Below are positions 4,548 through 30,473 of a DNA stretch of 64,000 bases, piece by piece. How positions within the stretch are numbered: position 1 is the stretch's first letter; each line of letters begins with the position of its first letter. The translations under genes were made by a program, and so were the position numbers. The notes below the pieces were generated by a model, which made no database searches, had not been told where the DNA came from, and saw only the letters and a program-made list of their open reading frames with translations. The stretch spans positions 186,001 to 250,000 of the forward strand of contig NZ_JACHGR010000006.1 of NCBI RefSeq assembly GCF_014202415.1, in the 5' to 3' direction. The stretch is from Tolumonas osonensis (GTDB lineage: Bacteria > Pseudomonadota > Gammaproteobacteria > Enterobacterales > Aeromonadaceae).

Positions 4548-4654
4548 GATCACATCTCCTGAATATCTATCAGTCGCAACTCAATGAATGTCTAATAAAA
4601 AGTCTAGATGTTGCAAACCTCTACATCAAACTTCAGCCGAATATTGTCTGCAGG

Positions 4655-7600
4655 TTATCGCCTTGCATCCGGATGGAAGGCTTCCGCTGAATAGAGCGCC
4701 ATGCCTTCATACGTCGTCCATTTTTGATCCACCACTTTTTGTGCGATCTCCATCAGCCGTTGTGCTTCCTCAGGATGCAGTTGCAGCAGTGTCTGGTAGC
4801 GGCTTTCATATTTGCGATACTCATAGAGCGGTATCGTCGGCCGCAGGCTATCCAGCGTGAAGGGGTTCCGGCCCTGTTCCCGCAATATGGGGTTATAGCG
4901 GATTAATGGCCAATGGCCGGAAGCGATCGCACGTTTTTGCTGAATCAAGCCGGTTCGCATATCGATACCGTGGGCAATGCAGTGGCTGTACGCAATGATG
5001 AGTGATGGCCCCGGATAGGCTTCCGCTTCCCGCATCGCCTGAAGAGCCTGTTGCGGATTGGCGCCAAAGGCTATCCGGGCGACATACACATTCCCGTAGG
5101 CGATCGCCTGTAATGCCATATCCTTTTTCGCCATGGTTTTGCCGCCTGCCGCAAATTTGGCGACGGCACCCAGCGGCGTCGATTTCGACATCTGGCCGCC
5201 GGTATTGGAATAGACCTCGGTATCCATCACCAGGATATTGATGTCTTTGCCGGAAGCGATCACATGGTCTAAGCCTGAGGAGCCAATATCATAGGCCCAG
5301 CCATCGCCGCCAATGATCCAGACTGAACGTCTGATCAGATGATCGAGCAGACTTTGCAGATTAAGTACGGCTTCCGAATGGTCATTGGCTAATAGCTCAC
5401 GGACCCGCAGTAAACGTTCACGTTGCTGCTGGATCTGCGATTCGACCTGTTGCGGGGCGTTGATGATCTGTTCTATCAGTTCAGTGCCAAGTTGCTGCGT
5501 CATGGTTCTCAGTGCGGTTGATGCCTGAGTCCGGTGATGATCGGCGGTCAGACGAAAACCCAGACCAAACTCGGCGTTATCTTCGAACAGTGAATTTGAC
5601 CAGGCCGGGCCTTTGCCTTCGCTGTTTTTTGCCCACGGTGTAGTGGGCAGATTCCCGCCATAGATGGATGAGCAGCCTGTGGCGTTGGCTACCATCATCC
5701 GGTCACCAAATAACTGTGTGAGCGCTTTCAGATAGGGCGTTTCGCCGCAACCGGCGCAGGCACCGGAAAACTCGAAAAGCGGTTCTAAAAACTGCACTCC
5801 GCGTATGGTTGAAAAATCAATGGCCGCGCGTTTTGGCCAGGGTAATGAATTGAACCAGCCAAGGGCGCGTTTTTCCCGTTCCAGAATTGGCAGTTTGTCG
5901 GCCATGTTAATGGCACGGTGGTTGGCATCGTCAGCCCGGACCGGACAGGCTTCAACACAGAGACCACAGCCGGTGCAATCTTCCGGATAAACCTGCAGGG
6001 TATACAGCGTATCCGGGAATCCACGGGCGCTGATAGGAGCCCATTTTGCACCTTCCGGGGCATTTTCCACCAAATCCTTATGATAAAACTTGGCTCGGAT
6101 GGCTGCGTGTGGGCAGACGAAAGAGCAGTTGCCGCACTGAATGCACAGATCTTCACGCCAATCCGGAATTTCCAGCGCGATATTGCGTTTTTCCCACTGG
6201 CTGGTTGCTGTCGGATAAGTGCCGTCGGCCGGTAACAGTGAAACTGGTATCCGGTCACCGCGTTCCTGCAGCATCTCTGCGGTGACTTCGTGGACAAAGG
6301 ACGACGTGTTATCGGGTATTTTCCATGCCGCGGCAGCGATACCGGTGAATTGCTCAGAAATGGGTATCTGATACAGGTGTGCCAGGGTGACATCGACCGC
6401 TTCAAAGTTTTTCTCAATGACGGACCGTCCTTTTTTGCGGTACGTCTTTTCGATGCTTTTCTTAATCAGTTTTATGGCCTGTTCTTTTGGCATCACATTA
6501 GACAGTGCAAAAAAACAGGTCTGCATGATGGTATTAATGCGCGTACCCATGCCGGTGCTGCGTGCAACCTCCGCGGCATTAATCACATAGAACTTTATTT
6601 GCTTCTGCCATATCTGTTTTTGCACATGCTTTGGCAGACGAGCCCAGGTTTCATCCGCAGGGTAGGGACTGTTGAGAAGAAACGTGGCACCGGGTTCGGC
6701 ATAACGTAATAAATCCAGCGACTCGACGAAATTGAACTGATGGCAGCCGATGAAATTTGCGGATGTGATGAGATAAGGCGCGTCTATCGGTTCCGGGCCA
6801 AAGCGCAAATGGGAAACGGTTCTTGAGCCTGATTTTTTCGAGTCATAGACAAAGTAACCTTGGGCAAAATATCCGGGCAATTCACCGATAATCTTTATGC
6901 TGTTTTTGTTTGCTCCGACCGTACCATCGGCTCCCAGTCCAAAGAACAGGGCGCGTACCTGATTTGCTGGTTCTGTCTGCCACGATTCATTCCAGGGTAA
7001 ACTCAGATGTGTGACGTCGTCGGTAATCCCTATCGTAAAGAAGTCATTGGCGGTGACTTTTTGCTGCTCTTCAAAAACCGCTTTGACCATCGCTGGTGTG
7101 AATTCTTTTGACGAAAGCCCGTAGCGGCCTCCGCTGATTTTTGGCAGTTGTCCGAATTGTTTATGCTGCACCGCGGAGACGAACGCGGCGACCGTATCCT
7201 GATACAGCGGTTCGCCGTTTGAGCCGGGTTCCTTGGTTCTGTCCAGCACAGTGACAAATTTTGTTGTTTCCGGAAAGGCGTTAATGAAGTGTTTGACGGG
7301 GAAAGGGCGATATAAGTGCACCGTCACGACACCGAATTTGCTGCCACTGGCATTCAGCACGTCAACGGTTTGTTTTACTGTTGATGCGCCGGATCCCATG
7401 ATGACGATGACGTGTTCCGCATCCTCCGCGCCATGATATTCAACCAGGTGATATTGCCGTCCGGTCAGTTCAGCGAAACGTTTCATTGTTTGTTCAGCAA
7501 TGTCAGAGACATGGTCGTAAAACGCATTAACGGTTTCTCTGCTCTGGAAATAGGTATCAGGATTCTGTGCCGTGCCTCTCATGAACGGTTGATCCGGATT

Positions 7601-22969: not shown

Positions 22970-24466
22970 GTGTTTATTGGTATTGATTGCGGTACGCAAA
23001 GTACAAAAGCCATTGTCTGGAATAGCCATACAAAAAAAATCATCGGAACGGGGGCGGCAAAATACCCGGTTCTGATGTATCGGCCCGGCTGTCAGGAACA
23101 AAAGGCGGACTGGTGGATTGACGCGCTCATCAAGGCCGTCAGGGAAGCCATCTCCGCGGCAAATATCAATCCCAAAGTGGTCAAAGCGATAGGCGTATCC
23201 GGCCAGCAGCATGGCCTGGTTGCCCTGGACCCGCATGATCAGGTTATCCGGGATGTTAAGTTATGGTGTGACACCGAAGGGACACAGGCCCTTGAGAAGT
23301 TTGAATCGAAACAGGTTTATCCTTTGCACAAGGAACTCGGCATTCATGTGCCGGTCGCTTTCACGATTGCCAAACTACTCTGGCTGAAACAGACAGAACC
23401 CCACGAGTTTGCCCGCATCAGAAAAGTATTGCTCCCGCACGAATATATCAATTTCTGGTTCACCGGAAACTACCGGGCTGAAGCCGGGGATGCTTCCGGG
23501 ACGGGCTATTTCAATACGCATACCCGGAGATGGAGCCAGTCGGTTCTTTATCAGCTGAACTTTCATCATGACTTTGTTCTGCCGGAGTTGATTCAATCCC
23601 ACGAACCCTACGGCGTCATCAGACCGGAAATTGCGGATCTGTTTGGTTTTAACCGTCAGGTCATCATCTCCAGCGGCGGGGGTGATAACATGATGGCCGC
23701 TATCGGAACAGGTAATACCTCGGAAAACAAGTTAACCATCAGCCTGGGGACTTCCGGGACTGCCTACAGTCATACCTTCAATCAGATTGATACCGAAAAA
23801 TACCCGGATATCAATGCGTTCTGTTCATCGACCAATGGCTATCTCCCTCTGATCAGTACCATGAACGTTACCAGTGCGACAGAAAAGTTCCGTGCTTTAT
23901 TTCAGATCGATCTGGCAACGTTCGAAGGCGCCATCAGTTCAGCACCGATAGGTTCAGCAGGGATCCGTGTTCTGCCTTATCTGAATGGTGCTCGTTTGCC
24001 CAATCAGCCGCATGCAAAAGCCTCCATTCATGGATTAAGCATGATGAACATGAGCAGAGAAAATATCCTGCGAGCGCTGGTGGAAGGCATTACCTACAAT
24101 CTGGTATCGGGCATCCGGCTATTCAGAAAAAACGGAATGCGTTTCCAGTCGGCGACCCTGGTTGGCGGCGGGGCAAACAGTCCTTGCTGGCGACAAATGA
24201 TGGCCGATATCACCGGTCTGGAAATCAGGGTACCGCAAGAAACCGAAGCTGCCGCACTGGGGGCCGCATTACAGGCGCAATGGTGTTACTTATGCAGTTC
24301 CGGCCAATATTACGGAATACAGGATTTATGCGACGATTCGATCCGGTTTAATCCTGAGCGCCATACCGTTTCCGTGCCCGCCCACCAACAGGTCTACCGG
24401 CAACTGTTCCAGGAATATATGTATTTGGTGAACAATCATTTTGGCAATCATGAACTGTCAAAATGA
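22970..24466 (+). CDS. FGGY-family carbohydrate kinase, xylulokinase-like
   Basis: A 498-residue sugar kinase. The N-terminal phosphate-binding segment GIDCGTQSTKAIVW, the xylulokinase-like GVSGQQHGLVALD, WCDTEGTQA and the C-terminal LVGGGANSPCWRQMMADI with TEAAALGAA are typical. It phosphorylates a ketose or polyol with ATP. The only start near the domain boundary is a GTG at 22970, with a poor ribosome binding site. The position after gatR suggests a role for a related sugar (xylulose, tagatose or another ketose), but I cannot fix the substrate. The gat operon itself has no PfkB-type tagatose-6-phosphate kinase. Confidence 0.85.
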   Translation: MFIGIDCGTQSTKAIVWNSHTKKIIGTGAAKYPVLMYRPGCQEQKADWWIDALIKAVREAISAANINPKVVKAIGVSGQQHGLVALDPHDQVIRDVKLWCDTEGTQALEKFESKQVYPLHKELGIHVPVAFTIAKLLWLKQTEPHEFARIRKVLLPHEYINFWFTGNYRAEAGDASGTGYFNTHTRRWSQSVLYQLNFHHDFVLPELIQSHEPYGVIRPEIADLFGFNRQVIISSGGGDNMMAAIGTGNTSENKLTISLGTSGTAYSHTFNQIDTEKYPDINAFCSSTNGYLPLISTMNVTSATEKFRALFQIDLATFEGAISSAPIGSAGIRVLPYLNGARLPNQPHAKASIHGLSMMNMSRENILRALVEGITYNLVSGIRLFRKNGMRFQSATLVGGGANSPCWRQMMADITGLEIRVPQETEAAALGAALQAQWCYLCSSGQYYGIQDLCDDSIRFNPERHTVSVPAHQQVYRQLFQEYMYLVNNHFGNHELSK

Positions 24467-24579
24467 CGCTTATCCTCCAAAATACAAAAACATGCTTGGC
24501 TAAATCATCACCGGTTGCTTTAATTAGCGACAGCAGGAAATCACGAGTTTCAGTGACGCATAAGGTGCGATGTCATGCT

Positions 24580-25935
24580 ATGAAAGCAACTCCTCATGTC
24601 CCACCCTACAATTTCACCGACTTATTGCTGGATGCGGTATGTGTCGTTGATCGTGACGGCTATTTCCTGTTTGTCAGTGCCGCCAGTGAAAGGATTTTTG
24701 GCTATAAACCGGATGAAATGATTGGCAAGCCCATGATTGATTTTGTATATCCGGGTGATCGGGAAAGAACCCTGAATGCCGTGACTGAAATTCTTAATGG
24801 TGAACATAAGCCGCATTTTGAAAATCGTTATGTGCGGAAAGATGGCAAAATAGTTCATATCATGTGGTCTGCCCGCTGGTCTGAATCGGAACAGGTGAGG
24901 GTGGCTGTTGCCCGTGATGTCACCGAACGGAAACGCGCCGAATCAATGCAGGCCGCCGTTTATGCCATCTCAGAAGCTGCCAATTCACCCGGTAATCTGA
25001 ATTCCTTATTTCAGCGTATTCACGAAGTTGTGGACGAACTGCTGCTGGCGACTGATTTTATGGTCGGCCTTTATGATGCAGAAAAAAACGAGTTAAGCTT
25101 TCCTTATTGCGCGCATCCAGACAGCGATTTATCGCTATCAACCCGGGTGCTCGAGATTATCGTAAAGCAGGTTATTCATACCGGGCGGTCCTTGCTATTA
25201 ACACCTGAAACTATCGCTGCAATTTTACCGTCATTAGTCTTTGATACTGGACCTAAGACATCAAACTGGCTGATCGCACCTATCAAATCATCGAATGGAA
25301 TGATGGGGGCGTTGCTCGTGATGAGCTCTGATAACAACATGCGTTTTACGGAACAGGATCGGGAATTGCTCCAGTTTGTATCCATCCAGGTAGCTGCTGC
25401 TATTGAACGCAAGCGAATGCTCACCCGGTTGGAATATATGGCGCAATTCGATCAGTTGACACATCTTCCAAACCGGATACTTTTTCTGGATCGCCTGCAA
25501 AACGCGTTAATCATCGCCCGCAGAGAACAAAAAATGCTGGCGGTGTTCTATCTGGATCTGGATAAATTCAAGCAGGTCAATGACACATTTGGTCATGCAA
25601 CAGGGGATCAGTTGTTGTCTGAGGTATCACGCCGCCTGACTCTGTGTGTACGTGAATCGGATACGGTCGGGCGCATCGGCGGCGATGAATTTGTCATTCT
25701 GGCCAATCATATCAAGCACGCGAGCGATGTTGACGTCATCAAAAACAAAATCAGAGCCGCATTATCTCACCCGTATGAGCTGGATAAGGCTCAATTGCAG
25801 ATCCTTCCCAGTATTGGCTGTGCCATTTATCCGGAACATGGCGAGAACGAAAGTGAACTGATTCATTATGCTGATTGCGCAATGTATCAGGCCAAAAAAG
25901 AACAAATGGCATTGTCCTTAACGTCAAAACCCTAA
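24580..25935 (+). CDS. PAS-GAF-GGDEF diguanylate cyclase
   Basis: A 451-residue cytoplasmic c-di-GMP synthase. A PAS domain (about residues 12-120; FGYKPDEMIGKPMIDFV) is followed by a GAF-like sensor (about 130-285) and a GGDEF domain (about 300-450) with the intact active site IGGDEF. An RxxD product-inhibition site (RESD) lies five residues ahead. There is no EAL domain or membrane segment. The start is uncertain: the ATG at 24580 follows AAGGTG, but an ATG at 24463 overlaps the kinase stop (ATGA) and adds 39 basic residues. The 3' end carries a 23-bp sequence repeated at 30748. Confidence 0.85.
   Translation: MKATPHVPPYNFTDLLLDAVCVVDRDGYFLFVSAASERIFGYKPDEMIGKPMIDFVYPGDRERTLNAVTEILNGEHKPHFENRYVRKDGKIVHIMWSARWSESEQVRVAVARDVTERKRAESMQAAVYAISEAANSPGNLNSLFQRIHEVVDELLLATDFMVGLYDAEKNELSFPYCAHPDSDLSLSTRVLEIIVKQVIHTGRSLLLTPETIAAILPSLVFDTGPKTSNWLIAPIKSSNGMMGALLVMSSDNNMRFTEQDRELLQFVSIQVAAAIERKRMLTRLEYMAQFDQLTHLPNRILFLDRLQNALIIARREQKMLAVFYLDLDKFKQVNDTFGHATGDQLLSEVSRRLTLCVRESDTVGRIGGDEFVILANHIKHASDVDVIKNKIRAALSHPYELDKAQLQILPSIGCAIYPEHGENESELIHYADCAMYQAKKEQMALSLTSKP
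25881..25903 (+). repeat. 23-bp direct repeat, left copy (inside GGDEF gene)
   Basis: Starts AATGTATCAGGCC and ends AAAAAAGAAC; identical to 30748-30770. It encodes the MYQAKKE end of the GGDEF domain. Sequence on both sides of the two copies differs. Confidence 0.85.
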
Positions 25936-26111
25936 CCGCGTTCCGTCATGTTGCATGAAATGGTGCTCATTTCTGGTTGGTATTTCTGAAAGGGAATCGT
26001 GACCAGTATCATCAATATGTATATTAAATATATCTTTATTAGCTTTTTAAGATTCAATTAATAGTTCAGGTCTAGCATTCAATCAGACGTTAGATGTTAG
26101 CCGGAGCAGTT

Positions 26112-26753
26112 ATGAAGCCTGTCAATGCGCCTTACCAGTTATCGTTGGCTAAAAGCAGTCACCAATATTCACACTTGCAACAATTTATACAGGACCAATA
26201 TCTCCACGAATTTAATGCGACGATACCTCATTTTTTGCCTGTATTGCTTGGACTTTACCGGGCTGACGGTCAGTTAGTCAGCGCTTGCGGATTAAATCCG
26301 GCACATCTGAACAATCTTTATTTAGAGCACTACCTGGATGCGCCAATTGAGCAAGTAGTGGCGAACCAGCACGGCATCGATATGGATCGGTCTCAAATAA
26401 TCGAAATTGGTAATTTTGCCGCGGTTGAAGCGGGTGCCTCGCGGATCATGTTTGCAGCACTGTGCCTGTTACTCAGAAAGAGTCATCTGGACTATGTGGC
26501 GTTTACCGGCACGAACAAGATCCGCAATATCTTTCAGCGTCTGCATATTAATCCGGTGGAACTGTCTCCGGCTTTACCTGAACGACTGGGGGAGGATGCC
26601 AATGCCTGGGGGGAATATTACCGTAATCATCCACTGGTCATGATTGGTGATGTGAACGCTGGTTATCAGACTCTGTGTGAAAACAGTCTGTTATTTTCCT
26701 TGTTTGGTGCTGTGCCTTCTTTGTTTTCTGAAACAGTGAGGACATCGGCATGA
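26112..26753 (+). CDS. Thermostable-hemolysin family protein (acyltransferase-like)
   Basis: A 213-residue soluble protein resembling the T_hemolysin family, named after the Vibrio delta-hemolysin. Recognisable stretches are HFLPVLLGLYRADGQLVSACGL, YLDAPIEQ, IIEIGNFAA and YVAFTGTNKIRNIFQRL. I recall members looking distantly like acyltransferases such as AHL synthases; this is family memory, not shown here. There is no signal peptide, which argues against a simple secreted toxin. The ATG at 26112 has GGAG five bases upstream. It is the first gene of five with overlapping stops and starts; the next gene overlaps by ATGA, so it likely acts with the acyl ligase. Confidence 0.75.
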   Translation: MKPVNAPYQLSLAKSSHQYSHLQQFIQDQYLHEFNATIPHFLPVLLGLYRADGQLVSACGLNPAHLNNLYLEHYLDAPIEQVVANQHGIDMDRSQIIEIGNFAAVEAGASRIMFAALCLLLRKSHLDYVAFTGTNKIRNIFQRLHINPVELSPALPERLGEDANAWGEYYRNHPLVMIGDVNAGYQTLCENSLLFSLFGAVPSLFSETVRTSA

Positions 26754-28189
26754 ACCTGTTTGAGCAAATCAGTCAGATTGCCGCCGAAGATCCACATCGT
26801 CCGGCATTATATGATAGCCACCGGACGCTCACTTATGCCGTGCTTGAGCATGAAATTCATCAATTATCTGATCAACTGAAAGCGCTGAAAATATCCCGCC
26901 TGGCGCTGCAAACAGATAACGGTATTGACTGGGCATTAGTTGATCTCGCCTGTATGTTCTCCGGTATCGTCGTGATTCCTGTTCCCTTGTTTTTCAGTGA
27001 GGAACAACAAAACTGGCTATTGGAAACGAGCGGAGCTGATGCGCTGGCTGGTCCGTCAAAAGCAGGCTGGGTATCATCACAATTGGCCTCTTTACCATTG
27101 CAACGCTGCCAGCCGGAAGCAGTGCCTTCCATTCCTGAAGGTACAGCAAAAATCACCTATACCTCAGGGACAACCGGGCACCCCAAAGGGGTTTGTCTGA
27201 GTTTCAGTCATCTGATGAATGTCTGTCAGTCAATCACAGAACGCATCCGGTCTGCTGATATCAGACAGCATCTCACTTTACTACCGTTATCTACGTTGCT
27301 GGAGAATATAACCGGACTGTATGTGCCTTTACTGACCGGAGCCAGCAGTTGTATTCCTTCTCTGACCGAGGTAGGGCTGACCGGTTCCAGCCAGTTTTCA
27401 CCGCCGGTTTTCGCTCAGGCACTAAAGAGATGGCAGCCGCATAGTCTGGTGCTGGTACCCGAATTACTCAGAATGCTGGTTGCTATGTGCAGTGCTGACA
27501 GTTCACTGGCATCCAGCCTGCGTTTTGTTGCCGTGGGTGGCGGGAAAGTCGCGGCGGATTTAATTCATAAAGCACGTCAGTCGGGCTTACCTGTTTATGA
27601 AGGTTATGGCCTTTCGGAATGTGGATCTGTAGTGGCATTAAATTCGCCTGATCATGATCTCCCCGGCGCAGTGGGATTACCGCTTCGTCATTGTCATGCT
27701 GTCATCAGTGACGATGGTGAAGTCTTGGTTAATGGTGCGCCTATGCTCGGCTATCTCGGCGACTCATCCTCTCATGAGCAGATAGCCACCGGTGATTTAG
27801 GCCATATAGACGAGCAGGGCTTTTTGCATATAACCGGCCGCAGGAAAAATGTGCAGATCACGGCTTTTGGACGCAATTTTTCGCCGGAATGGATAGAAGC
27901 AGAGGCGCAGATTTACCCGTCAATAACTCGCATCGTCGTATTCGGAGATGCCTTACCAGCCAACATTGCCATCGTACAAACAACACCCGGACAGGAAAAA
28001 CAGCTGCCCGCGCATATAGCTCATCTCAATACCCATTTACCAGACTATGCACGGATTCATCATTATATCGAAGCCGAACTGACCGCTGCGTCCGGTTTAA
28101 TAACCAGTAATGGCCGGCCGAAACGGCAAAAGATTCTGGATATATATCAGACACAGATTGCTCAGATTTTCGCAGGAGATCCAATATGA
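26750..28189 (+). CDS. AMP-dependent acyl-CoA synthetase / acyl-acid ligase
   Basis: A 479-residue adenylate-forming enzyme that activates a carboxylic acid as acyl-AMP and passes it to CoA or another acceptor. The ATP-binding loop YTSGTTGHPKG, the A5 motif YGLSECGS, the hinge region GRRKNVQITAFGRNFSP and the C-terminal catalytic lysine region GRPKRQKI are all visible. It is shorter than typical FadD (about 560). Lack of a CoA-ligase partner such as fadE nearby and tight coupling to a diiron oxidase suggest a dedicated biosynthetic substrate, probably a fatty or aryl acid (inference). Confidence 0.85.
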   Translation: MNLFEQISQIAAEDPHRPALYDSHRTLTYAVLEHEIHQLSDQLKALKISRLALQTDNGIDWALVDLACMFSGIVVIPVPLFFSEEQQNWLLETSGADALAGPSKAGWVSSQLASLPLQRCQPEAVPSIPEGTAKITYTSGTTGHPKGVCLSFSHLMNVCQSITERIRSADIRQHLTLLPLSTLLENITGLYVPLLTGASSCIPSLTEVGLTGSSQFSPPVFAQALKRWQPHSLVLVPELLRMLVAMCSADSSLASSLRFVAVGGGKVAADLIHKARQSGLPVYEGYGLSECGSVVALNSPDHDLPGAVGLPLRHCHAVISDDGEVLVNGAPMLGYLGDSSSHEQIATGDLGHIDEQGFLHITGRRKNVQITAFGRNFSPEWIEAEAQIYPSITRIVVFGDALPANIAIVQTTPGQEKQLPAHIAHLNTHLPDYARIHHYIEAELTAASGLITSNGRPKRQKILDIYQTQIAQIFAGDPI

Positions 28190-28842
28190 CCTTTTACCAG
28201 CAACTTCAGGATAGCACCGCGCGTGAACGCGATTATTTATTAAGTGCACCGATCATCGAAGCTTGCCGCACCGGCGATATCAACAAGGAAATGTACATTG
28301 CTTTCCTGAAACAGGCCTATTACCACGTGCGTCATACCGTTCCGTTACTGATGGCAACCGGAGGAAAGTTACCTCAGGATTATGAGTGGGTACGTGGCGC
28401 AATTGCAGAATACATTGCTGAAGAATATGGTCATCAGGAATGGATATTAAACGATATCCGGGCATGTGGTAGCGATGCGGAATCTGTCAGAACAGGTCAG
28501 CCGGGATTATCAATTGAACTGATGGTAGCATTTCTTTATGACCAGATAACCCGCTTAAATCCCATGGGATTTTTTGGCATGGTGCAGGTGCTGGAGGGGA
28601 CCAGCGTCGCTATTGCACTCAACGTCGCCGAACAACTGAAAAAGGGTCTTAGCTTACCGTCCAATGCAATGAGTTATCTCAGCTCTCATGGTGCACTTGA
28701 TCAGGAACATCTGCGCTTTTTTGAGTCATTGATGAATAAAGTGGAAAAACCGGAAGATCAGCAAGCGATCATCCATTCCGCAAAAGTCGTCTACCGGCTC
28801 TATGGCAACATGTTACGTGAAATAACAGGGCATCTCGCATGA
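28186..28842 (+). CDS. Heme-oxygenase-like diiron oxidase (HDO; TenA/PqqC-like fold)
   Basis: A 218-residue helical protein usually labelled TenA-like or 'iron-containing redox enzyme'. It carries a full set of predicted diiron ligands in HDO order: E80-x2-H83 (EYGH), E137 (QVLEGTS) and H168-x3-D172-x2-H175 (HGALDQEH). This spacing is the same as I recall for UndA, which makes terminal alkenes from fatty acids. TenA's active-site cysteine is not evident. It overlaps both neighbours by ATGA. The prediction is O2-dependent oxidation of the acid activated by, or supplied with, the adjacent ligase; the product is unknown. Confidence 0.78.
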   Translation: MTFYQQLQDSTARERDYLLSAPIIEACRTGDINKEMYIAFLKQAYYHVRHTVPLLMATGGKLPQDYEWVRGAIAEYIAEEYGHQEWILNDIRACGSDAESVRTGQPGLSIELMVAFLYDQITRLNPMGFFGMVQVLEGTSVAIALNVAEQLKKGLSLPSNAMSYLSSHGALDQEHLRFFESLMNKVEKPEDQQAIIHSAKVVYRLYGNMLREITGHLA

Positions 28843-29645
28843 AACTGGAAAATGCAAAAATATTGATAACCGGCGCCAGTGGTGGCATCGGAAAAGCGCT
28901 CTCTCATGCGTTGGCAGAGCAAAATGCTTTTCTGGTGCTGCATGGTCGTAATGAAAGCCAGCTTGAACAACTGAAGGGATCATTACCTTATCCGGAGCGT
29001 CATCAAATCATCGTCGCTGATCTTACTCAGACAGCGGACCGGGCCGCGTTGCTGCAACATCCGGCGCTGAATGCAGGGATCGATGTACTGATTAACAATG
29101 CGGGCACAAATGAATTCGCCTGGCTGGAAGATCAGACAGAAACCCAGATTGAGCGCCAGTTATATGTGAACGTTCAGGCTCCGGTTTTACTGACCAAAGC
29201 CATGTTGCCGCATTTAAACAAACCGGCCCTGATCATGAATATAGGCTCAAGTCTGGGCAGTATTGGTTATCCGGGTTACAGCGTTTACTGTGCGACCAAG
29301 TTTGCTATCCGCGGTTTTAGCGAGGCGCTGAACAGAGAATTAGCCGGTAGCGGAATTAAAGTGCTCTACTTTGCTCCCCGGGCGACGCAAACCTCGATCA
29401 ATTCCGATGCCGTTAATGAAATGAACAAAGAACTGGGCACTAAAAGCGACACCGCCGAGTCAGTTGCCCGTGAAGTCGTGACGGCTTTGCAAAAAGAGAT
29501 AAAACGTCGTTGGCTGGGCTGGCCGGAAGGCTTGTTTGTCCGCATCAATGGGCTCATACCGCAACTGGTTGATAACGCCATTATCAAACAATTGCCTGTT
29601 ATTGCTAAATTTGCCCGTGTTGGCTTTCAAAAAGGAACTCACTGA
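28839..29645 (+). CDS. Short-chain dehydrogenase/reductase of the hemolysin/HDO operon
   Basis: A 268-residue classical SDR: TGASGGIG cofactor loop, VADLTQ, LINNAGTNEF, Ser in NIGSSLGS and YCATK catalytic Tyr/Lys. A hydrophobic C-terminal stretch (LFVRINGLIPQLVDNAIIKQLPVIAKFARVG) resembles SDRs acting on lipids at the membrane. The start overlaps the HDO stop by ATGA and its stop shares one base with the next ATG. It presumably reduces or oxidises the pathway intermediate. Confidence 0.85.
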   Translation: MKLENAKILITGASGGIGKALSHALAEQNAFLVLHGRNESQLEQLKGSLPYPERHQIIVADLTQTADRAALLQHPALNAGIDVLINNAGTNEFAWLEDQTETQIERQLYVNVQAPVLLTKAMLPHLNKPALIMNIGSSLGSIGYPGYSVYCATKFAIRGFSEALNRELAGSGIKVLYFAPRATQTSINSDAVNEMNKELGTKSDTAESVAREVVTALQKEIKRRWLGWPEGLFVRINGLIPQLVDNAIIKQLPVIAKFARVGFQKGTH

Positions 29646-30262
29646 TGAAAAAATACTTATTTTTAATGGGATTAGTGAGTGTTGCAGCACCACAAGTCCA
29701 TGCGGCTGATGCACTGATTCGGATACAGGACCAGTGGAGTGTTTGCCAGTATCAGGTAGAAAAAGACGCAAAAGAAGGTTGTCTGGAAACATTGAGTAAA
29801 GAGGCAAGCCAGCAGAGTCTGCAGAATAAATCACGTGTCGATTTACTGATCTGGTCTGCCATCGTAAAAAGTAGCTGGGCTGGCGCTAAAGGTGGCTTAG
29901 ACGCACTCTCTTTGGTGAAAGAAGCTAAAGGTGAACTTGAACAGGCTTTGGCCCGGGATCCCAAATCGTTAAATGGTTCGGCTTATACCAGTCTCGGTAC
30001 ACTTTATTATCAGGTTCCGGGATGGCCGATCGGTTTTGGTGACAACAAACAAGCCGAGCAGTTATTAAAACAGGCGCTGGCAATTAATCCTGACGGTATT
30101 GATCCTAATTTCTTTTACGGCGATTTCTTGCTGGAACAAGGCCGTAAAAAAGAAGCAAAAATTTACCTGACAAAAGCCCTTAATGCCCCGGAACGTATCG
30201 GCCGTGAGCTTGCGGATAAAGGCCGGAAACAGGAAATTCAGGACAGGTTGTCTGAATTGTAA
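29645..30262 (+). CDS. Periplasmic TPR-like protein
   Basis: A 205-residue exported protein. The signal peptide MKKYLFLMGLVSVAAPQVHA ends with a standard signal-peptidase I site. The mature part has TPR-like helices (GELEQALARDPKSLNGSAYTSLGTLYYQVPGW; AEQLLKQALAINPDGIDPNFFYGDFLLEQGRKKEAKIYLTKAL). It is the last gene of the operon and overlaps the SDR by one base. Such proteins scaffold partners; here it may help export or place the product in the envelope (inference). Confidence 0.75.
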   Translation: MKKYLFLMGLVSVAAPQVHAADALIRIQDQWSVCQYQVEKDAKEGCLETLSKEASQQSLQNKSRVDLLIWSAIVKSSWAGAKGGLDALSLVKEAKGELEQALARDPKSLNGSAYTSLGTLYYQVPGWPIGFGDNKQAEQLLKQALAINPDGIDPNFFYGDFLLEQGRKKEAKIYLTKALNAPERIGRELADKGRKQEIQDRLSEL

Positions 30263-30281
30263 TCAGCAGTTAAACGATAGA

Positions 30282-30473
30282 TTATAAATCTTTAACTAAA
30301 AGCCCTGATTTCAGGGCTTTTTTGAATCTCCACTCGCTCACCAGACACTGCTTACTCACTTCTCCGACATCAACAGCACGGGCGGCTTCCGGATCGCCGT
30401 GCCTTGTCCTGCTTTGTCCGACCGCCACACAACCCCAAAACTCCTCGTCTGAATCTCTTTTGGCGATAGTCAT
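30282..30473 (-). CDS. Doubtful 63-residue reading frame
   Basis: The frame starts MTIAKRDSDEEFWGCVAVGQ and its last dozen codons read through the bidirectional terminator (RFKKALKSGLLVKDL), which argues against a real protein. The GC-rich middle (RHGDPEAARAVDVGEVSKQCLVSEWRF) has a flavour I associate with short predicted proteins seen repeatedly beside terminators in related bacteria, so it may instead be a copy of a dispersed non-coding element. The ribosome binding site is weak. Kept only to flag the stretch. Confidence 0.2.
   Translation of the reverse strand: MTIAKRDSDEEFWGCVAVGQSRTRHGDPEAARAVDVGEVSKQCLVSEWRFKKALKSGLLVKDL
30297..30324 (+). terminator. Rho-independent terminator after TPR gene
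   Basis: Stem AAGCCCTGA / TCAGGGCTT with a small loop and a T-run on the + strand; it is also A-flanked on the other side, so it could work in both directions. Confidence 0.88.

Follow-up and report, generated by a model that had tools for sequence, protein, structure and literature searches.

We examined a 64,000-nucleotide window of the Tolumonas osonensis genome (RefSeq assembly GCF_014202415.1, contig NZ_JACHGR010000006.1, forward-strand positions 186,001 to 250,000) and, within it, a five-gene operon on the + strand at window positions 26112..30262 that begins with a gene for a 'thermostable hemolysin' (TH). The five-gene set is conserved, widespread and little studied, and its parts belong to known superfamilies. 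We put at about even the chance that the five genes form a short route to an oxidised N-acyl amino acid or N-acyl amine, and the TH 'toxin' is probably an enzyme. The features of the region are as follows.

26112..26753, + strand: TH, 'thermostable hemolysin' (PF12261); Pfam T_hemolysin, 2.3e-63; LuxI/FeeM profile match; GGAG before the ATG
26750..28189, + strand: adenylate-forming acyl ligase (ACS); Pfam AMP-binding (PF00501), 4.5e-49
28186..28842, + strand: predicted heme-oxygenase-like dimetal oxidase (HDO); Pfam Haem_oxygenas_2 (PF14518), 8.4e-31; conserved metal ligands
28839..29645, + strand: short-chain dehydrogenase/reductase (SDR); Pfam adh_short, 2.8e-40; conserved N111, S137, Y150 and K154
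29645..30262, + strand: TPR protein, probably exported to the periplasm; TPR_19, 5.6e-11; signal-like N-terminus by eye
30298..30323, + strand: intrinsic terminator of the operon; hairpin of -15.5 kcal/mol, z -4.71
24463..25935, + strand: PAS-GAF-GGDEF protein (Pfam), directly upstream; a possible partner outside the general set, in a block shared with locus L063

The five genes are a genuine operon with one strong terminator. Inspection of the junction sequences gave successive overlaps of 4, 4, 4 and 1 bases. The fold of 30290-30330 compares with a shuffle mean of -5.14 kcal/mol, and 0 of 200 shuffles folded as well; this hairpin was absent from the output of a consensus terminator scan. A promoter scan found fewer sites than in shuffled sequence, and no promoter is therefore claimed. 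TH has an alternative in-frame ATG at 26094, and GGAG lies directly 5' of 26112. Judged by eye, the TPR protein has a Sec-signal-like start, MKKYLFLMGLVSVAAPQVHA-AD, and no signal peptide was seen in TH. An earlier note on this DNA, made from its letters, had described overlaps of one to four bases ending at a single terminator, a ligase, an O2-dependent oxidase, a reductase and a TPR protein, and a 'hemolysin' lacking a signal peptide; the overlaps and hairpin, the Pfam matches and the visual inspection of TH bear these points out, for the enzymes at the level of family.

The set is kept together across genomes. PF12261 is present in 38 of 369 genomes sampled from the class, and up to 18.5 kb was fetched around TH in the 37 other than the window's. 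All five genes occur together in 28 of these loci, which were sampled by TH alone (ACS in 35, HDO in 32, SDR in 34, TPR in 31). Among the nine incomplete loci, L038 and L046 end at contig ends; L042, L069 and L070 are without the TPR gene, with HDO fragmented in L070; L051 is without HDO, and L071 has a TauD gene in its place; L066 is TH alone and L073 is TH plus a TPR gene. Across the class genomes, TH and HDO are both present in 34, with TH alone in 4 and HDO alone in 6. In a sample of 299 genomes from the phylum, searched with an HDO query from L163, TH is found in 67 and HDO in 77; 65 genomes have both, 2 have only TH and 12 only HDO. HDO lies 1.49-1.84 kb downstream of TH on the same strand in 60 of the 67, a spacing that equals the length of the ligase gene, and the remaining five genomes with both carry them on separate contigs. 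Fisher odds ratios are near 460 for the class and 596 for the phylum, with p-values that overstate independence because the genomes share kinship. The gene-neighbourhood search that the earlier note had proposed thus finds the genes kept together.

Locus structure was also compared in the best 80 of at least 584 HDO-profile relatives, chosen by HDO similarity and drawn from Aeromonas, Vibrio, Pseudomonas, Marinobacter, Alteromonas, Polynucleobacter and other genera. Five separate genes are present in 63 of them. ACS and HDO are fused in nine: eight, otherwise complete, encode the two in a single reading frame, and the ninth (L113) has no TPR match; the fusion recurs in L295. The other eight loci comprise six cut by contig ends (L088, L089, L093, L128, L137, L149), one without a TPR match (L127) and one without a TH match (L138). 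The L088 contig, from a Tolumonas sp., carries TH-ACS-HDO. Gene order in 93 loci with five separate open reading frames, part of them picked by HDO similarity, is TH-ACS-HDO-SDR-TPR in 85, with TPR and SDR swapped in 6 and a second TPR gene in 2. The operon is also present on two plasmids, one conjugative (V. parahaemolyticus) and one mobilizable (Citrobacter), where the last gene encodes a TPR protein. Gene-distance correlations of 0.55-0.83 over 100 loci carry no weight because species history confounds them. Two variations of the operon were seen: L067 and L124 have a tandem pair of TPR genes inside it, and L047 has radical SAM and PNPOx-type genes inserted between ACS and HDO (4624-6074).

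TH is likely a remote relative of the LuxI and FeeM N-acyltransferases. It matches T_hemolysin at 213.6 bits (curated cut-off 27), and no other Pfam family fits consistently among 39 members. In profile comparisons TH matched LuxI-family hits (22 sequences) with probabilities of 95.0% and 94.8% (E of 4e-8 and 5e-8) and FeeM-family hits (25 sequences) with 95.4% and 95.6% (E about 1e-8); reversed profiles gave at most 0.7% and unrelated profiles 0.2-0.6%. A Glu that is invariant in 113 of 113 TH proteins aligns with the Glu of the LuxI motif. These comparisons back the earlier note's description of the 'hemolysin' as acyltransferase-like. It is very improbable that TH is instead a true protein hemolysin, with the remaining genes serving its modification or delivery. 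The family name speaks for a hemolysin, as does a V. cholerae homologue that was hemolytic in lysates and supernatants, as retold in PMC4046660; but no signal peptide was seen by eye in TH, the same source notes none for two homologues, and enzymes of small-molecule metabolism are constant neighbours, Streptomyces included. ChoA provides a further argument against a toxin: this protein bears a hemolysin annotation and has been modelled on LasI, and its product is commendamide, an N-acyl glycine; commendamide lysed red cells, and the purified ChoA protein did not (passages of PMC5643525). On the missing signal and the enzyme neighbours, a protein toxin was rejected.

HDO is predicted, from its fold family and ligand set, to be a heme-oxygenase-like dimetal oxidase. 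Metal ligands (three His, three Glu/Asp) were assigned by spacing to MboA, whose six are E86, H89, E143, H172, D176 and H181 (PMC13185094, in part); in HDO they are E80 (112 of 113 aligned members), H83 (113 of 113), and E137, H168, D172 and H175 (113 of 114 each). Enzymes of this type act mostly on amino-acid-derived substrates, according to the same passages. Free-standing hydrocarbon synthesis by an UndA-like enzyme was rejected, as no UndA chain is among the PDB matches of HDO at E up to 1. Ten HDO relatives with no adjacent TH were examined (L162-L164, L286-L292), two of which (L291, L292) turned out to be ordinary operons truncated at contig ends. In four of the eight informative loci (L163, L286, L287, L290) the HDO relative stands next to a FeeM or Acetyltransf_5 gene; the L287 neighbour reaches only PF13444, and that in L286 reaches PF13444 and falls below the FeeM cut-off. 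In L164 (8089-11780), genes for KAS III, a GH3-type ligase and HDO stand in a row, possibly another small-molecule cluster.

Four loci have TauD, an iron oxygenase unrelated to HDO, in its place. In L071, on Acinetobacter plasmid p4 and on two Streptomyces plasmids, TH and ACS are joined by a TauD/TfdA oxygenase gene and HDO is missing; the four TauD proteins are one family, with 38-41% identity between the three genera, and are not fused in the cases seen. TH occurs in 51 plasmid records, 21 of them Streptomyces. From the plasmid searches with TH and with HDO, regions of seven records were examined, one of which lacks annotation. An HDO search of plasmids at E 1e-20 returned no Acinetobacter or Streptomyces record. 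The Streptomyces linear plasmids (L301, L302) carry TH-ACS-TauD with a major facilitator superfamily (MFS) exporter among several ketosynthase genes. A PDB search with the Acinetobacter TauD gave 0 matches; the Streptomyces TauD gave 5 weak ones, three of them not oxygenases.

The other three proteins were compared with their families. One PDB match of ACS is a nonribosomal peptide synthetase (NRPS) adenylation domain. Amino-acid adenylation by ACS was rejected, as an FDxS-like Asp was not seen by eye. In SDR, N111, S137, Y150 and K154 are conserved in 113 of 113 aligned members. The TPR protein shows a part-length likeness to the sterol carrier BstC (2.8e-10; profile 7.3e-10, with designed TPR proteins scoring higher), which lends weak support to a hydrophobic ligand.

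The proposed pathway would begin with ACS activating a fatty (or other) carboxylic acid. TH, as a cytoplasmic N-acyltransferase rather than a pore-forming toxin, would form an amide from the acyl group and an amine, with an amino acid as the probable amine. HDO, with O2 and two metal ions, would oxidise the amide by hydroxylation, desaturation or oxidative decarboxylation; SDR would alter the product's redox state, with the periplasmic TPR protein possibly helping to carry or place it. Hemolysis credited to the TH protein would then be an effect of an amphiphilic product, as with ChoA. We infer the order of steps, the substrates and every reaction. An oxidised amide is favoured because of the TH profile match, the FeeM neighbours of HDO relatives, the ACS-HDO fusions, the exchange with TauD, the linked presence of TH and HDO, and precedents, among them N-acyl tyrosine clusters in which an N-acyl synthase is found together with an O2-dependent desaturase (PMC12479983, in part). 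The fusions, in particular, place HDO close to the acyl-activation step.

Several observations count against this proposal. Strict subsets weaken the TH match, to 8-10% for the four strongest LuxI sequences and 37-70% for seven FeeM sequences, and TH against Acetyltransf_5 gives 28-32% with a strict subset and 5-6% with all 28 sequences. In a Pfam search at E up to 10, whose filters drop weak hits, 0 of 39 TH members matched the LuxI (PF00765) or FeeM/GNAT (PF21926, PF13444) models, and TH matched 0 PDB chains. The Arg of the LuxI-type motif, three residues after the Glu, is Asn in 93 of 113 TH proteins. HDO relatives beside FeeM are distant, at about 30% identity; those in L162 and L289 have no FeeM or Acetyltransf_5 neighbour, and that in L288 is only near a reading frame with MFS, acyltransferase and AMP-binding domains. 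Acyl ligases are expected to carry the A10 lysine near the C-terminus for adenylation. In ACS this residue (456, about 28115-28117) is Arg in 93 and Lys in 13 of 108 aligned members, and ACS activity may therefore be unusual. Finally, the fusion of ACS with HDO is also compatible with an oxidation of the activated acid by HDO that precedes the TH step.

That last point is the core of an alternative, unlikely but with an appreciable chance, in which oxidation comes first: HDO would act on the fatty acid, activated or free, in the manner of UndA or a desaturase, and TH would then transfer the oxidised acyl group to form an amide or ester. It fits the fusions, the gene order ACS-HDO, and the action of UndA on fatty acids (PMC13108848, in part); it sits poorly with the FeeM-HDO neighbour pairs, beside which no ligase gene of the ACS type was found, with the unfused TauD replacements, and with the lack of UndA among the HDO matches noted above. 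We see a slim chance that the product is a metal-binding small molecule and that the regulators described below sense iron or copper. A cupredoxin cluster and an FTR1-type permease cluster are each found in 19 of 119 loci, usually on the downstream side (L102, L106 and others), and L069 is flanked by cytochromes, a two-component pair and a metal-transporting ATPase gene; yet metal-related neighbours are found in a minority of loci, and HDO itself may simply need iron. Isonitrile metallophore clusters combine an NRPS, a carrier protein and a thioesterase with a ligase and TauD, and none of those three is in the conserved set or among its annotated recurring neighbours. Degradation of fatty acids by beta-oxidation, as proposed for a run of genes with matching annotations in Pseudomonas alcaligenes AVO110, is barely credible here. 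An AMP-binding ligase and an SDR are present, and fadD is required for growth in fungal exudate (passages of PMC8304167 and PMC6344628). In that exudate the AVO110 genes, matched to the operon by annotation and order only, were induced 38- to 389-fold: ligase 389, ligase/iron-containing redox enzyme 373, SDR 318, TPR 107 and response regulator 38-fold (PMC8304167, in part). Acyl-CoA dehydrogenase, hydratase and thiolase are nevertheless absent from the five genes and their annotated recurring neighbours, and with these enzymes of the route missing from the conserved set we rejected a beta-oxidation cluster. HDO and TH are not known to take part in beta-oxidation.

Most sampled relatives carry regulatory genes beside the operon. 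An OmpR-type regulator cluster occurs in 86 of 119 loci and a 2CSK_N kinase cluster in 85, both built by single linkage and hence loose; they lie mostly directly downstream, the regulator at a median distance of 42 bases. Some of the loci are one contig fetched twice (e.g. L045 and L143). In the 37 TH-sampled loci both are present in 27 and at least one in 29. The pair probably controls the operon. No such pair lies near the operon in the window, and the window's genome has no whole-length match to an operon-linked kinase: the best covers residues 187-474 of 478 (33%, 137 bits), a lower score than any of the 66 other downstream-linked kinases reaches (143 bits or more). Within the genus, TH is found in 4 of 11 genomes; one of the four is the window's, and the other three copies are 95, 52 and 50% identical to the copy there. 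A single block of 92% identity, at positions 24472-30321, spans the operon and the PAS-GAF-GGDEF gene in L063, from the same genus, where the flanks differ. We regard as rather improbable a broader idea, that the seven-gene unit is a new signalling system in which TH and HDO or TauD make an oxidised lipid amide that is sensed by the 2CSK_N kinase and OmpR-type regulator. The kinase pair would sense the signal or its envelope effect and then amplify the operon; through the O2 step, the signal would convey oxygen or iron status in addition to cell density; and in the Tolumonas lineage the kinase pair would have gone and the GGDEF protein would travel with the operon instead.

A recent foreign origin was rejected on base composition: G+C content is 48.0% in the operon and 47.4 and 47.5% in the 10-kb flanks. 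Beside the operon, a 54-residue frame at 30521-30685 matches only the end of the PfkB sugar kinase profile (246-293 of 302) and is probably a gene remnant. Elsewhere, cytochrome b561 genes lie near some copies (L299, L084, L085, L099, L127 and L140), and HchA is encoded on the Vibrio plasmid, a possible oxidative-stress context.

The earlier note matched the operon to no known natural-product or lipid pathway. Our search of open-access full-text literature, a scope outside which most subscription papers fall, likewise found no named pathway or product, and a term search of a 2026 mini-review of HDO enzymes (PMC13108848) found no mention of hemolysin. Virulence surveys list the TH family among the toxins, one of them in 564 of 565 Aeromonas caviae genomes (PMC11165597, in part). 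Should TH prove to be an N-acyltransferase, these entries would be misleading, and roughly one in ten of the sampled class genomes would encode a metabolite that has escaped notice. If HDO and TauD, two unrelated iron oxygenases, do occupy the same position in one pathway, the pair would help to test the capabilities of both. Published expression changes, of 38- to 389-fold (PMC8304167, in part) and 184-fold (PMC4046660, in part), suggest a regulated ecological role.

The operon can be set beside several known systems. HDO shares its fold family and six-ligand set with MboA, CADD and UndA (PMC13185094, in part), although its best sequence match in the PDB is 3dde, of unknown function, and CADD and MboA match far more weakly. 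FeeM/NAS clusters (thalassotalic acids, stieleriacines, tyrazolones) likewise bring together an N-acyl synthase and an O2-dependent oxidase; they differ in having a nitroreductase-family oxidase and a ThiF-like protein, with no ligase-HDO pair in the passages of PMC12479983 consulted. ChoA, one of the 'hemolysin'-labelled N-acyltransferases of COG3176, resembles TH in its hemolysin label and LuxI-like fold model, with no protein toxin needed, but belongs to a different Pfam family and has the motif Arg where TH has Asn; in the passages of PMC5643525 consulted, no dimetal oxidase is described alongside it. In Serratia ATCC 39006, a TH of the TauD type was up 184-fold in an rsmA mutant, and its locus (or1352-1355), compared by description only, combines TH, an AMP-ligase and an iron oxygenase as the window does; TauD replaces HDO, a Bcr/CflA exporter is present, and SDR and TPR are not named in the portion of PMC4046660 consulted. 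The earlier note's mention of similar neighbours around the Vibrio delta-hemolysin gene fits. In V. parahaemolyticus, VP1729 (thermostable hemolysin), VP1731 (iron-containing redox enzyme) and VP1735 (histidine kinase) are linked in a predicted interaction network (PMC10469919, in part), and four Vibrio loci (L096, L101, L118, L151) carry the five-gene set. This delta-VPH locus thus has TH and HDO as the operon does, with the kinase within one locus range; in print it is a hemolysin, not a pathway, and the kinase pair is absent from the window.

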